From positions 1 to 6,647 of the forward strand of contig JAJRSX010000084.1 in the NCBI GenBank assembly GCA_024278555.1: a stretch of DNA of 6,647 nucleotides, read 5' to 3'. A model generated the notes under the pieces. It saw only the letters and a program-made list of their open reading frames with translations, did no database searches and was not told the DNA's origin. The position numbers were made by a program, and so were the translations under genes. This stretch comes from a bacterium (lineage in GTDB: Bacteria > CG2-30-53-67 > CG2-30-70-394). Shown piece by piece: positions 915-6,647 of this stretch (its first letter is position 1; each line of letters opens with the position of its first letter).

Positions 915-1253
915 CTACGGGATCGGCGTCCCGGGGGGGTCGTCGTGGTCGCCGTGGCCAAAGAGGCGGGCCATCTCGTCTTTCAGGAGGCCAAAGGCGG
1001 TGTAGTTGACGGCCCAGAAGAGGATGGAGGCGATGGGGACGGCGACGAAGGTGATGGCGGTCCCAGGACCGGTGGATTCGTGGATCTGATGGGCCGAGCG
1101 GATCATGTAAAAAAACCAGCTCAGGAAGGCAATGATAAACAGATTGAATCCTGCAACCATTGCGATCTGGATGAAGAATATGAGTTTTTGTTGCGTTGGT
1201 CGCATGGGGAGCCCATCCGAAAAATGTACGGATATGCGTTGTTTGTTGACCAT
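915..1253 (-). CDS. small two-helix membrane protein of unknown function
   Basis: A 112-residue protein that I do not recognise. It has a short polar N-terminus, a first hydrophobic helix at about residues 24-51 (rich in F, I, L and W), a polar loop ending in IRSAHQIHEST, and a second helix at about 66-90. The tail is charged, contains Asp and His (FGHGDHDD) and ends in PPGTPIP. The two clear helices are what make it credible as a gene, since shadow frames in this DNA are Arg/Pro-rich. The stop is TAG (917-915). Two ATG starts are possible: residue 1 (at 1253) and Met17 (at 1205). Neither has a good Shine-Dalgarno sequence, so the start is uncertain. It is divergent from the respiratory operon with only 54 bases between the starts, so a shared control region is possible. 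Its DNA is less GC-biased than the operon. A role linked to the adjacent electron-transfer complex is only a guess from position. Confidence 0.7.
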   Translation of the reverse strand: MVNKQRISVHFSDGLPMRPTQQKLIFFIQIAMVAGFNLFIIAFLSWFFYMIRSAHQIHESTGPGTAITFVAVPIASILFWAVNYTAFGLLKDEMARLFGHGDHDDPPGTPIP

Positions 1254-1307: not shown

Positions 1308-1814
1308 GTGCACACAACCGGGATTACCGGGTTCGTGGCGGGCGTGGCAGGGCTGATGGCCACCTTGCCGCCGCAGGACGCCGGCGCCGGCACCACCCAC
1401 CAGCCCATCCAGTTCAACCACCAGAAGCACACCCAGGGGTTGGAGCTGTAGTGCATCCAGTGCCACGAGGGGGTGGCGGATCGCATCCGCGCCACCCTCC
1501 CGGGGGTGGAGGTGTGTATCGGCTGCCATGAGGAGGCGGTCACCGATAGCCCGGAGGAGGAGAAGATCCGGGGCTACGACGGCGGCGGTGAGGAGATCCC
1601 GTGGCAGCGGCTCTATCGGGTGCCCAGACACGTCTTCTTCTCCCACCGGCGCCACGTCCACGTGGCGCGGGTCGAGTGCACCACCTGCCACGGCGACATG
1701 GGGAGCCTGACCCGGCCGCCGCCCAGGCCCCTGAAGAAGATCGCCATGAAGGCGTGTCTCGCCTGCCACCGCGACCGGGGCGCGCCGATCGACTGCGTCT
1801 CCTGCCACCGTTGA
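1308..1814 (+). CDS. pentahaem c-type cytochrome (ActA-like), interrupted by in-frame TAG
   Basis: This is the periplasmic multihaem electron carrier of the complex. Read from GTG 1308 the frame gives a signal peptide (hydrophobic core GITGFVAGVAGLMATL), then FNHQKH (residues 36-41), and five CXXCH haem sites: CIQCH (49-53), CIGCH (70-74), CTTCH (124-128), CLACH (150-154) and CVSCH (163-167, one residue before the stop). FNHQKH and FFSHRRH (residues 110-116) are the F-S/N-H-x-x-H segments that provide second axial histidines in class III/c7-type cytochromes. Five haems match ActA of alternative complex III. Codon 48 (1449-1451) is TAG, immediately before the first CXXCH, and splits the signal peptide from all haem sites. 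The next in-frame start, GTG 1473, would give 113 residues with four haem sites but no signal peptide, so it could not be exported or matured. CAG to TAG by one C-to-T change would explain it. If the stop is real and not read through, this is a pseudogene. The next gene starts 18 bases downstream. Confidence 0.8.
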
Positions 1815-1832: not shown

Positions 1833-4307
1833 ATGGATCGAAGGAGCTTCCTCAAGGTTCTGGCCGGCGGCACCTTCGGCGTTGCCTACGGCTATGGCCT
1901 CTTCCCGCGGCTGGCGGCGATGCCCGCGGCGGCGCTGCGGGAGCTCGGGGACGACGCCCTGCGTCCCCCGGAGGAGCGGTGGATCCCGTCGATTTGCCAG
2001 CAGTGTCCGGGGGGCTGCGGGATCCTCGTGCGCGCCTATGGCGACCGGGCGGTGAAGATCGACGGGAACCCGCTCCATCCGATCAGCCGCGGGCGGCTGT
2101 GCGCCCGCGGGCAGGCGGCCCTGCAGCTCCTCTACGACCCGGACCGGATTCGCGGCCCCATGGTGCGGGTGGGTGAGCGCGGGGCGGGCAAGTGGAGGTC
2201 GGTGTCGTGGGACGTTGGCCTCGCCGCGGTGGCCAAGCCGCTGGCGGCGTTGCGGGCCCAGGGACGGGCACACTTTGTGGCCATGCTCACCGGGCCGCCG
2301 CGTGGTCTCGATTTCATGGTGGGCGAGTGGTTCATGGAGAGCTACGGCTCCCCGAACCTGATCCCGATGGCCCGCGACCGCGCCGCCGGCCGTGACGAGG
2401 CCGTCGCGCTCATGCAGGGGGGCGAGGCGGGGGTTACCCACGACATCGAGAACGCCACCTATATCCTCTCTTTGAATAGCGGTCTCCTGGAGCGCCACTG
2501 GTCCGCCGTCCAACTCGCGCGCGCCTACGGTCGCTTTCGGCGGGGACGCAGCAACCTCCGCGGCCGCTTCGTCCACTTCGAGCCGCGCCTCTCGGTCACC
2601 GGGGCCAAGGCGGACGAGTGGGTGCCGCTCCGTCCGGGCAGCGAGGGCGTCCTCGCCAACGGCATCGCCTCGGTGTTGATCCGCGAGGGGCGTTACGACC
2701 GCGACTTCGTGCAAGAGCGGGTCTTCGGCTTCGAGGACTGGAGGGACGAGGGGGGAGCCCTTCATCCCGGCTATCAGACCCTGTTGCTCCGCTACTACCC
2801 GATGGAGCGGGTCGAGGAGGAGAGCGGCGTCGGTCGCGAGACGATCACCCGCATCGCCCGGGAGTTCTCCCGCAGCGCGGCGGCGGTGGCGATCGGCCCG
2901 GAGGGCGGCGCCCTGGGGGCGGCGGGTCTGCACGGACAGATGGCGGTCCACGCCCTCAACGCCTTGGTGGGCAACCTCCAGCGGAAGGGGGGCGTCCTGA
3001 GCCGAGCGCGGATGCCCACGCTCTCGCTCCCTCCGGTCACCCCGGACGCCGTGGCGGCGCGCTCCCTGGCGCAGCCACCGATCAACGGGGGTGGGGGCGG
3101 GGCGGTGGTCAACGGCGTGGGCTCGGCCGAGCGCCTGGCGGCGCGGCTGGCGAGCGCCGACCCCTACCCGGTGGAGGCGGTGATCCTGCGCGGCGCCAAC
3201 CCCTTGTTCGACGCCCACCCCCAGGCGTCCTTCCTGGGCGCCCTGGACAGGGTCGGGCTTGTCGTCAGCCTCGCGTCGTTTCTCGATGAGACCACCGTCC
3301 ACGCGGATGTCGTCCTCCCCGACTCCACCCCCATGGAGCGGTGGCAGCTCGACACCAGCTACACCCTCCAGGGCCAGCCGGTGGTCAACCTGGGGCGGCC
3401 GGTGGTCCCGCCCACCTTTGATACCCGCGATGCCAACGAGACCCTCATGGCGGTGGCGCAGCGGATCGGCGCGCCGGTCTCCGACCGCTTCCCGGTGGTC
3501 GAGCCGGAGGCGCTGATCAAGGGGGCGGTGGTGTCGCTCCACGCCGGTGGCAGCGGCGAGCCGTTCGGTGCCCCCCTGGAGGAGGCGTGGACGACGCTGT
3601 TGGAGCAGAGCGGCTGGCGCGTCCCCCACGACGAGCCCTTCGAGACGTTCTGGGAGGGGCTCACGGCGCGCGGCGGCTGGTGGGATCCGGTCTACTACCG
3701 CTACGAGTGGGGGCGGGTTCTCGCCACCCCCTCCGGCCGTTTCGAGCTCCGTTCGCAGCGGGTCGCCGCGTGGCTCTCCTCCCTGCCGGAGTCGGGGCGC
3801 GAGGCGGCGCTGCACGGTGTGGCGCCCTCCCTCCAGGGGCTTGGCACCGAGCTCCTCGCCCTGCCGCTGGCGGTCCGTGACGACGGGGCGGGCGACGCGG
3901 CCTACGACCTGGAGGTCAACCCCTACCCCATCCCGATTCTCAGTGGCCTCGCCCACACCAATGAGCCGTGGTTGCAGGACATCACCGGCTTCCACCTCTA
4001 CCGCAACTGGGAGACGTGGGTGGAGATCCACCCGCAGACCGCCGGCGAGCGGGGGTTTGTCGACGGTGAGCGGGTGTGGGTGGAGTCGCCGTCCGGCCGG
4101 GTGCTGGCGCGGTTACGCCTTTTCCCCGGGGCGATGCCGGGGGTGATCAACCTGCCCGTGGGGCTCGGCCACACCTCGGGGGGCCGGTGTACGGCGGGGA
4201 TCGGCGACGCCCCGCAACGGATCCTCGCCACCGGGGTGGAGCCGCTTACCGGGGCGACGGTCTATCGGGCCACCCGGGCCCGCCTGCTTCCCGTGGAGGA
4301 GAGATGA
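1833..4307 (+). CDS. Tat-exported molybdopterin-oxidoreductase-like subunit (ActB1/QrcB-like)
   Basis: An 824-residue member of the DMSO-reductase/CISM superfamily. The N-terminus has a Tat signal (DRRSFLK at 2-8, then a hydrophobic stretch). Cys55, Cys58, Cys62 and Cys90 form the CxxCxxxC...C [4Fe-4S] motif, followed by ARGQ. Later family landmarks are NPLFDAHP (about 455), HADVVLPDSTPMERW (about 490), TPSGRFEL (about 630) and the C-terminal dinucleotide-binding domain with INLPVGLGHTSGG. After GSPN (172-175), where PsrA/PhsA-type enzymes carry the Mo-ligating Cys, the sequence reads LIPMARDRAAGRDEA, with no Cys, Ser or Sec. Molybdenum catalysis is therefore doubtful and a structural role, as in ActB and QrcB, is more likely. 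The motif EPWLQDITGFHLYRNWETWVEIHP also resembles ACIII/Qrc-type proteins. The ATG at 1833 has a strong GAGGAGAGGA site (1813-1822). The gene ends in a 4-base ATGA overlap with the ferredoxin gene, whose product probably shares its Tat export. An active sulfur or arsenic oxyanion reductase is the alternative reading. Confidence 0.88.
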   Translation: MDRRSFLKVLAGGTFGVAYGYGLFPRLAAMPAAALRELGDDALRPPEERWIPSICQQCPGGCGILVRAYGDRAVKIDGNPLHPISRGRLCARGQAALQLLYDPDRIRGPMVRVGERGAGKWRSVSWDVGLAAVAKPLAALRAQGRAHFVAMLTGPPRGLDFMVGEWFMESYGSPNLIPMARDRAAGRDEAVALMQGGEAGVTHDIENATYILSLNSGLLERHWSAVQLARAYGRFRRGRSNLRGRFVHFEPRLSVTGAKADEWVPLRPGSEGVLANGIASVLIREGRYDRDFVQERVFGFEDWRDEGGALHPGYQTLLLRYYPMERVEEESGVGRETITRIAREFSRSAAAVAIGPEGGALGAAGLHGQMAVHALNALVGNLQRKGGVLSRARMPTLSLPPVTPDAVAARSLAQPPINGGGGGAVVNGVGSAERLAARLASADPYPVEAVILRGANPLFDAHPQASFLGALDRVGLVVSLASFLDETTVHADVVLPDSTPMERWQLDTSYTLQGQPVVNLGRPVVPPTFDTRDANETLMAVAQRIGAPVSDRFPVVEPEALIKGAVVSLHAGGSGEPFGAPLEEAWTTLLEQSGWRVPHDEPFETFWEGLTARGGWWDPVYYRYEWGRVLATPSGRFELRSQRVAAWLSSLPESGREAALHGVAPSLQGLGTELLALPLAVRDDGAGDAAYDLEVNPYPIPILSGLAHTNEPWLQDITGFHLYRNWETWVEIHPQTAGERGFVDGERVWVESPSGRVLARLRLFPGAMPGVINLPVGLGHTSGGRCTAGIGDAPQRILATGVEPLTGATVYRATRARLLPVEER

Positions 4308-5017
4308 GCGCACCGACAGGGACCACCGCCCACCGGGCGCGCTGGGGGATGGTCATCGACCTCGACAGGTGCACCGCCTGTCAGGCGTGTGTGGTGGCGT
4401 GTCAGGCAGAGAACAATATCCCCAACTCGAATCCACACACCGCCCAGGGCGGCCGCAACATCCACTGGATGGAGATGATCCCCTTTGTGGAGGGGGAGTA
4501 CCCGCATACCGAGATGCGCCTGCTGCCGCGCCCGTGCATGCACTGCGACAACCCGCCGTGCATCAAGGTGTGTCCGGTGGGGGCGACGCAGCTCAGCTCC
4601 GAGGGGATCGTCGGTCAGATCAACGCCCGCTGCATCGGCTGTCGCTACTGCACCACCGCCTGTCCGTACACGGTGAAGTCGTTCAACTGGTTCAAGCCGC
4701 AGTGGCCGGAGGTGATGGAGCGGTACCTCAACCCGGACGTGAGCGTGCGTTTCAACGGGGTGGTGGAGAAGTGCACCTTGTGCCACCACCGCCTGCAGAA
4801 GGCCCGCGACCTGGCGGCCTACGAGGGACGGCCCCTGCAGCCGGGGGACTACACCCCCGCCTGTGTCCAGACCTGTCCCGCCGAGGCGATGGTCTTCGGC
4901 GACCTGGCCAACCCGCGCTCCGCCGTCGCCGTCCTGTCGCGCAGCAAGCGGGCGTTTCGTCTCCTCGATGAGCTCGGGACCGAGCCCAAGGTGACCTATC
5001 TGAGAGAGGGGGTGTGA
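4304..5017 (+). CDS. four-cluster ferredoxin-like electron-transfer subunit (ActB2/PsrB/QrcC-like)
   Basis: A 237-residue iron-sulfur protein that would pass electrons between the membrane subunit and the periplasmic cytochrome or molybdopterin-like subunits. Sixteen cysteines fall into four groups: 23/26/29/33 (CTACQACVVAC), 78/81/86/90 (CMHCDNPPCIKVC), 110/113/116/120 (CIGCRYCTTAC) and 157/160/187/191 (CTLC...CVQTC), the standard DmsB/PsrB arrangement. In characterised ACIII one of the four clusters is a [3Fe-4S]. Here every position has a cysteine, so four [4Fe-4S] clusters are possible by sequence. There is no signal peptide. Export most likely occurs by hitch-hiking on the Tat signal of the preceding subunit, whose stop overlaps this start (ATGA). 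ATG 4304 is chosen over upstream in-frame starts because it has GGAGGA at 4295-4300 and gives the usual N-terminus just before the first cluster. In canonical Act loci this domain is fused to the molybdopterin-like domain; here it is separate. Confidence 0.93.
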   Translation: MSAPTGTTAHRARWGMVIDLDRCTACQACVVACQAENNIPNSNPHTAQGGRNIHWMEMIPFVEGEYPHTEMRLLPRPCMHCDNPPCIKVCPVGATQLSSEGIVGQINARCIGCRYCTTACPYTVKSFNWFKPQWPEVMERYLNPDVSVRFNGVVEKCTLCHHRLQKARDLAAYEGRPLQPGDYTPACVQTCPAEAMVFGDLANPRSAVAVLSRSKRAFRLLDELGTEPKVTYLREGV

Positions 5018-5018
5018 C

Positions 5019-6374
5019 GTGGACCTCGAAGCGGCCTACCGGCGCGACGAGGAGATCCTCCTCCGACCGATCCTAGAGTCGAACCGCAACGTCTACGTCG
5101 CCGTCACCGTGCTCGGCGTCTTGGTGGCGTGGGGCATCTACGCCTATCTCTACCAGTTCCACTACGGCCTCGGGGTCACCGGCCTCAACCGGCCGGTCTA
5201 CTGGGGCTTCTACATCACCAACTTCGTCTTCTTCATCGGGATCAGCCACGCGGGAACCCTGATCTCCGCCATCCTGCGGATCGCCAGGGCGGAGTGGCGG
5301 CGCGCCATCACCCGCTCGGCAGAGGTGATCACGGTGATGGTGATCTTCTTCGGAGCCGCCTCCATCTTGATGGATTTGGGGAGGCCGGACCGCCTGCTCT
5401 TCGTGATCACCCACGGCCGCTTCCAGTCGCCGATCCTCTGGGATGTCACCAGCATCACCATCTACCTGACCTCCAGCAGCCTCTACCTCTATCTGCCGCT
5501 GATCCCCGATATCGCCATCATGCGGGACACGATCCCGAAGCGGCGGTGGTTCTACGCCATCCTCGCCCTCGGCTGGCGCGGCACCCCCAAGCAGTGGCGG
5601 CGGCTGGAGCTGGCAATCCAGGTGATGGCGATCTTGGTCATCCCGGTGGCGGTCTCGGTCCACACGGTGGTCTCCTTCGTCTTCGCCATGACCGTGCAGC
5701 CCATGTGGCACTCGGCGATCTTCGGGCCGTATTTCGTGGTCGGGGCGATCTACTCGGGGATCGCCGCGCTCATCGTCGCCATGGCCATCATCCGCTGGGT
5801 CTACCGCCTGCAGGACTACCTCAAGGATGTCCACTTCCAGAACCTGGGGATCCTCCTCTTCATCATGACCCTCCTGTGGACCTACTTCACCTTCTCCGAG
5901 TACCTCACCACCTTCTACGCCGGCGAGCCGGTCCACATGGCGGTCTTCTGGGCCAAGTTCAGCGGCGAGTACCGGCACGAGTTCTGGGGGATGGTGGTCT
6001 GCTGTCTGGTGATCCCGTGCATCTTCCTCAGCAACCGGCGGATGCGGACCATGGGCGGGATGGTCTTCACCTCCCTGGCGATCACCGTGGGCATGTGGCT
6101 GGAGCGGTTCATCATCGTCGTTCCCACCTTGGCGAACCCGCGCCTCCCGTATGAGCGCGGCGTCTACCACCCGAGCTGGGTGGAGATCTCTCTGCTGGTC
6201 GGGTGCTTCGCCTTCTTCATCCTCCTCTACGTCCTGTTCACCAAGTTCTTCCCCATCGTCTCCATCTGGGAGACCAAGGCGGGGCGAGCCCATGCGGTGC
6301 GCGAGGTCTCCAGCCGGGTGGAGGAGTACCTCCCCGGCGACCCCGCCACGATGGAGGCGGGAGGTGGGTCATGA
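5019..6374 (+). CDS. nrfD: NrfD/PsrC-family quinone-reactive membrane subunit (ActC-like)
   Basis: A 451-residue polytopic membrane protein expected to hold the quinol/quinone site and anchor the complex. I count ten hydrophobic helices, roughly at residues 25-47, 60-86, 100-121, 139-163, 196-224, 235-262, 277-301, 323-340, 346-370 and 388-414. That is longer than classical eight-helix NrfD/PsrC proteins (about 320 residues) and matches ActC and QrcD. Family-like segments include GLNRPVYWGFYITNFVFFIG (55-74) followed by ISHAG, ILWDVTS (139-145), SVHTVVSFVFAMTVQPMWH (213-231) followed by GPYFVVGA, and FSEYLTTFYAGEP (292-304). Polar residues inside helices (His78, Asp142, His215) are candidates for quinone binding or proton transfer. 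The start is GTG 5019, one base after the preceding stop, with an AGAGGGGG ribosome binding site just upstream. The polar C-terminal tail ends in a 4-base ATGA overlap with the next gene. ActC versus QrcD cannot be settled by eye. Confidence 0.93.
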   Translation: MDLEAAYRRDEEILLRPILESNRNVYVAVTVLGVLVAWGIYAYLYQFHYGLGVTGLNRPVYWGFYITNFVFFIGISHAGTLISAILRIARAEWRRAITRSAEVITVMVIFFGAASILMDLGRPDRLLFVITHGRFQSPILWDVTSITIYLTSSSLYLYLPLIPDIAIMRDTIPKRRWFYAILALGWRGTPKQWRRLELAIQVMAILVIPVAVSVHTVVSFVFAMTVQPMWHSAIFGPYFVVGAIYSGIAALIVAMAIIRWVYRLQDYLKDVHFQNLGILLFIMTLLWTYFTFSEYLTTFYAGEPVHMAVFWAKFSGEYRHEFWGMVVCCLVIPCIFLSNRRMRTMGGMVFTSLAITVGMWLERFIIVVPTLANPRLPYERGVYHPSWVEISLLVGCFAFFILLYVLFTKFFPIVSIWETKAGRAHAVREVSSRVEEYLPGDPATMEAGGGS

Positions 6375-6647
6375 GCGGTCCGGCGTGGGGTCGCGGGTCC
6401 GGGAGGGGGGGGCGGTTTGTTGGCCAGGTGGTGGTGGCGTGCGTGCTCTGCGGAGTCCTCTTGGCGGCCATTCGTGTGGCGGCGGAGACCGCCGTCCCCT
6501 CCCTGGCGCAGGGGGCGCGCCGCGGCTGGGAGCTCTTCCTCGCCAAGGGGTGTATCCGTTGCCACACCATCTTCGGGCAGGGGGAGGGGGTGATCGGCCC
6601 GGACCTCGGGCGGATCCACCTCAGCCATCTGTCGCAGGCGGAGCTGG
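6371..6647 (+). CDS. monohaem cytochrome c, 5' part (ActE-like candidate)
   Basis: The first 92 codons of a gene that continues past the right edge. An Arg/Gly-rich start (three Arg in the first 15 residues) is followed by a hydrophobic stretch, about residues 16-34, that can act as signal peptide or anchor. It contains VVAC (21-24), which resembles a lipobox, but the stretch before it is short, so lipidation is uncertain. The mature part has GWELFLAKGCIRCHTIFGQG with a haem site CIRCH at 61-65, then GPDLGRIHL, the usual pattern of a class I monohaem cytochrome c domain. The methionine ligand would lie beyond the window. ATG 6371 overlaps the preceding stop (ATGA) and has GGGAGG at 6359-6364. 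In an Act-type operon a monohaem cytochrome (ActE) is expected to pass electrons to a terminal oxidase. An oxidase-associated cytochrome c is the alternative, since the downstream genes are not visible. Confidence 0.85.
   Translation, partial: MSGPAWGRGSGRGGRFVGQVVVACVLCGVLLAAIRVAAETAVPSLAQGARRGWELFLAKGCIRCHTIFGQGEGVIGPDLGRIHLSHLSQAEL

Follow-up and report, generated by a model that had tools for sequence, protein, structure and literature searches.

The window analysed here is the whole of contig C53 (6,647 bases) of the assembly G000, which comprises 3.06 Mb in 211 contigs, with a completeness score of 100% and a contamination score below 1%. Its plus strand carries an operon that opens with a gene for a multihaem cytochrome (1308..1814), which has a GTG start, a TGA stop and a single TAG inside. 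This gene is followed by an intact, QrcB-like subunit of the molybdopterin-oxidoreductase family (1833..4307; PF00384, PF04879 and PF01568), which contains an N-terminal 4Fe-4S Cys motif and no internal stops, and by a QrcC-like iron-sulfur subunit (4304..5017; Fer4 families), the start of which overlaps the preceding stop (ATGA). An NrfD/PsrC-like membrane subunit (5019..6374; PF03916, E = 3.8e-33) comes next, and a gene for a class I cytochrome c (6371..6647; PF00034) is truncated by the contig end. Five genes matching this operon, in identical order, are found on L215, which belongs to a Nitrospirae MAG, and the relative's copy of the last gene (L215:12071-13351) encodes a cytochrome with four CXXCH motifs. 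In G001, a genome of the same genus that is 94% complete, no close match to the cytochrome or to QrcB was found, so some members of the genus may lack the complex. On the minus strand, a small, divergent ORF resembling a membrane protein (915..1253), which has no family match, ends in a TAG stop according to the ORF list, as the original prediction had noted.

The window also contains repeats. Inverted, intergenic copies of a CACAGAGGACACGGAGA-type repeat are located at 200-366. The G000 sample has further occurrences of a related motif (25 GACACAGAGG), and none came up in the smaller G001 sample. Short palindromic repeats at 25-50 and 548-578 (TCGGCTTCAGCCGA, GGGCTGAAGCCC) are likewise recurrent in the G000 sample.

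Judged by its translation, by the homology of the read-through product and by the NCBIfam model QrcA, the first gene is assigned to a pentahaem c-type cytochrome (QrcA/ActA-like) of a quinone:cytochrome oxidoreductase that resembles Qrc and alternative complex III (ACIII). The product of 1308-1814 reads VHTTGITGFVAGVAGLMATLPPQDAGAGTTHQPIQFNHQKHTQGLEL, then the stop, then CIQCH and onwards to CVSCHR and the terminal stop. The TAG, which occupies 1449..1451, is directly followed by the first haem motif, CIQCH (1452..1466), and the other four are CIGCH (1515..1529), CTTCH (1677..1691), CLACH (1755..1769) and CVSCH (1794..1808), so that the frame holds five CXXCH motifs and exactly one internal stop, in agreement with the original prediction. 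A homology search aligned residues 29-168 of the read-through cytochrome with uninterrupted relatives at 61-69% identity, and intact counterparts at this level are present in four genomes of the same class as G000. Because this homology crosses the TAG in one frame, the gene is neither a chance ORF nor the result of a frameshift, the second of which had already been dismissed when the stop was first described.

The leader that follows the GTG at 1308 has the hydrophobic core of the signal peptide originally proposed and is weaker than the leaders of its relatives, which carry Lys/Arg near the N-terminus, where this one has none. Export of the cytochrome is probable and, owing to this leader, appears less clear than had been assumed. 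Mechanically, an ORF from GTG 1473 exists, from which a cytochrome without the first 47 codons could be made by internal initiation after the TAG. Such a product would have neither the signal sequence nor the first haem motif, and would therefore be neither exported nor provided with a full set of haems; the complete form is found in all relatives, and internal initiation is extremely improbable. A similarity search of the genome found no second intact copy of the cytochrome, and the idea of a compensating intact paralogue was dropped, the only matches being weak ones to a different multihaem protein on contig C51.

None of 80 homologues from public genomes, all of them uninterrupted, has a stop at the TAG position, which also answers the possibility, raised originally, that close relatives might share the TAG. 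The commonest residue at the site is Glu (23/80), followed by Asp (15/80), and in an alignment of 14 homologues the five closest all carry Glu. The codon is GAA in the closest named homologues, and the intact cytochrome of L215 likewise has Glu (GAA) here. In the codon usage of G000, GAG is about 10 times commoner than GAA. Given Glu in the closest relatives and this preference, a G-to-T change that turned GAG into TAG appears to be the simplest origin of the stop, and the CAG-to-TAG (C-to-T) origin proposed earlier is not borne out. Programmed stop-codon readthrough was rejected since the stop is not conserved among the 80 homologues; the earlier view that a base error or a nonsense mutation is likelier than such readthrough holds, and TAG is a normal stop in the genome.

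In-gene stops were surveyed in 1.26 Mb (41%) of G000 with a codon-usage model of coding potential, which looked for coding sequence on both sides of a stop. A strict first pass gave one candidate, and the thresholds were loosened twice after known genes had been scored. The last pass gave 106 candidates, all of which were judged by eye; most are junctions of neighbouring genes. About 12 genes on different contigs have one in-frame stop (about 10 TAG, one TAA and one TGA), a count that comes from a survey detecting only part of such genes and from a reader's sorting of gene junctions from in-gene stops. For most of these genes, comparison with protein families or solved structures served as a check.

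One of them encodes the canonical lysyl-tRNA synthetase (LysRS) on contig C56, to which a weak match in a pylS search had led. It contains one internal TAG (L085:9010-9012, plus strand), where G001 and most relatives have Glu, and it also terminates in TAG. No other canonical LysRS is present in the assembly: the remaining LysRS-like matches are partial, with two lying at contig ends, and a class I LysRS that could replace the enzyme was not found. A TAG also interrupts an aminotransferase (Glu in the closest solved homologue), a CbbQ/NorQ protein (Gln in two homologues), a sigma-54 activator (at a variable site), a PhoB-type regulator and a flavoprotein, as well as three less certain cases, namely a glutamate-dehydrogenase-like protein, a beta-propeller and a barrel-like protein. 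An RND/MMPL transporter is interrupted by TAA, and a short, weakly matched AAA-type gene by TGA, the residue replaced in the latter being presumably Gly, going by the family rather than by an alignment. Glu and Gln are both among the residues replaced, so the stops do not point to one particular amino acid.

All three stop codons are represented, which is compatible with plain substitution. Single substitutions at equal rates in the sampled codon usage would yield 62.5% TAG, 21% TGA and 16% TAA, and the excess of TAG over this expectation is not significant, either for all cases (at least 10 TAG in 12, P = 0.11) or for the nine surest ones only (at least 7 TAG, P = 0.28). The test is thin, with just two non-TAG cases, both of them in dispensable genes and possibly ordinary pseudogenes. 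Among the residue-resolved cases, one of which is the presumed Gly of the AAA-type gene, 4/5 would be G-to-T changes (P = 0.06), too few to claim a bias, and a biological G-to-T mutator was rejected, MutY and MutM both being intact.

Two further in-frame TGA codons were counted at first, when the tally was 6 TAG of 9, and later left out, whereby the TAG share rose. One lies in an arsenite-methyltransferase-like selenoprotein on C50 (L156, minus strand, 611) and the other in a zinc-ribbon (seleno)protein DG on C76 (L177, plus strand, 4063). They were set aside because these are known selenoprotein families and because tRNA-Sec and SelB are present in G000, an organism that probably makes selenoproteins.

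In the wider genome, TAG is an ordinary terminator, as had been expected from the neighbouring minus-strand gene. RF1 and RF2 are both intact, and TAG ends 177 of 429 long ORFs (41%) in the G000 sample. As an observation in its own right, this proportion seems high for 68% G+C, and the same-genus genome is similar (25/70). Stops within five codons after the terminator, which could serve as a back-up, are not enriched behind TAG (5.6%, vs 13.7% for TGA-ended ORFs). Genome-wide reassignment of TAG was rejected on the grounds of the intact RF1, the use of TAG as a terminator and the TAG with which LysRS itself ends. Neither an amber suppressor tRNA nor pylS, for both of which a search had been suggested, was detected in the genome: a CUA anticodon is absent from its 48 tRNA matches and from the 1.26 Mb sample, which led to the rejection of a suppressor tRNA, and altered Glu/Gln tRNAs with a shortened anticodon stem were likewise rejected, because the Gln tRNAs and tRNA-Glu(UUC) form normal cloverleafs.

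UAG is the codon for pyrrolysine in organisms where pylTSBCD exists, which is the one point in favour of pyrrolysine being inserted at the cytochrome TAG. No PylS above the curated cut-off occurs among the nine genomes searched, one weak match, inspected in full, being an ordinary LysRS; tRNA-Pyl was not found in the tRNA searches of G000, and relatives have Glu at the site. The original prediction had considered pyrrolysine unlikely, and with no pylS found its probability becomes practically negligible.

A lethal stop in LysRS, a gene that the cell cannot lose, points to a fault in the data rather than to biology. The TAG at 1449-1451 is accordingly, in our judgement, probably a base-level error in a fragmented assembly, which covers the cytochrome stop, the LysRS stop and the missing decoding machinery together, and which needs no new biology. 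The comparable stops elsewhere in the assembly make an assembly-wide error more likely than an event specific to the cytochrome. The TAG would be one of the in-frame stops scattered across G000, most simply a GAG codon in which the G was read as T; the cell itself would have a Glu codon at this position. The five-haem cytochrome would then be exported and would pass electrons between soluble cytochromes c and the quinone-reactive NrfD/FeS part, in both respects like its relatives. Several observations speak against an error. Most interruptions are TAG, and the argument from mixed stops is thin, as it draws on one TAA and one TGA. For a short-read assembly with good coverage, the error rate that follows from these stops is high. 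Furthermore, the 52 nt from the TAG onwards are more stably folded than most of their shuffled versions (z = -2.4, 3/200 shuffles), although the 121-nt stretch shows no such excess (z = -1.0). No account of erroneous stops in metagenome assemblies emerged from a literature search.

Should the TAG instead be a genuine and recent nonsense mutation, the first subunit would be lost and the complex would be decaying or working without its pentahaem subunit. The cytochrome is single-copy, and the genus may be able to do without the complex, given that G001 has neither a high-similarity cytochrome nor its QrcB partner, both of which fit such a loss. No additional decay is visible in the remainder of the gene or in the operon downstream of it, and the stop in LysRS is left unexplained, which makes a nonsense mutation unlikely.

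The interrupted genes, and above all LysRS, which the cell needs, can also be read as a sign that UAG is read through, wholly or partly, by near-cognate Glu/Gln tRNAs or by an unseen suppressor tRNA, which would give full-length LysRS and other proteins. Around ten genes with a single internal TAG in 41% of the assembly, the location of several of these codons at conserved Glu/Gln positions (in the cytochrome, LysRS, the aminotransferase and CbbQ/NorQ) and the modestly stable stem after the cytochrome TAG all lean in this direction. Against it stand the intact RF1, the many ORFs, LysRS included, that end in TAG and do so without back-up stops, the tRNA and pylS results, a TAG share that fits plain substitution and a sense codon at the site in all relatives. 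Moreover, 260 kb of the same-genus genome contain no gene with an in-gene stop, a weak result, since the G000 rate would predict only about two. Readthrough is thus quite improbable. It is very doubtful that UAG is leaky or suppressed in such a way that it would be read as Glu or Gln at some ten or more internal sites, with LysRS and the cytochrome depending on it; suppression lacks every expected part and is unsupported.

If a base-level error is indeed the cause, a lone in-frame TAG in this assembly is no evidence of recoding or of gene loss, and caution is advisable, as an assembly scored 100% complete appears to hold single-base stops in conserved genes. If, on the other hand, the TAG is real, UAG would be read inside the LysRS of an organism that has RF1 and many TAG terminators and shows no suppressor, which would amount to a new kind of ambiguity of the code.

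Compared with known systems of UAG recoding, such as pyrrolysine insertion and amber suppression, the cytochrome gene is alike in having a TAG in frame within a conserved coding sequence. It is unlike them in that G000 is without decoding machinery, keeps RF1 intact and uses TAG as a frequent terminator, and in that no relative has a TAG at the site.

The operon itself resembles Qrc (QrcABCD) of Desulfobacterota in its gene order of multihaem cytochrome, molybdopterin-family subunit, FeS subunit and NrfD-like subunit, and the best NCBIfam models for subunits A, B and C are QrcA, QrcB and QrcC. All scores are nevertheless below the curated equivalog cut-offs, with 67.8 vs 180 bits for QrcA (scored solely on the portion behind the TAG), 272.5 vs 440 for QrcB, 298.6 vs 400 for QrcC and 56.8 vs 570 for QrcD. 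The membrane subunit scores higher as DsrP (123.7 bits) than as QrcD, a class I cytochrome c gene comes after it, and the cytochrome has five CXXCH motifs, whereas QrcA carries six haems (PMC8076601).

With ACIII (ActABCDEF), the operon shares a pentahaem subunit, as ActA has 5 haem c (PMC8076601), and the cytochrome matches ACIII-type cytochrome chains (subunit A) in the PDB (6btm, also 8k9e and 6lod). In contrast to ACIII, the molybdopterin-family and FeS parts are separate (1833-4307 and 4304-5017) and do not form a single ActB, there is a single NrfD-like gene before the contig end, as there is in L215, where an ActF-type second subunit is absent, and the operon fits the Qrc models better. 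It is thus Qrc/ACIII-like and a strict member of neither class, because it has five haems and not the six of QrcA and because ActB is not fused. By analogy with these systems, the most likely role of the complex is electron transfer between quinone and periplasmic cytochromes c, which the NrfD-like subunit would couple to ion movement.
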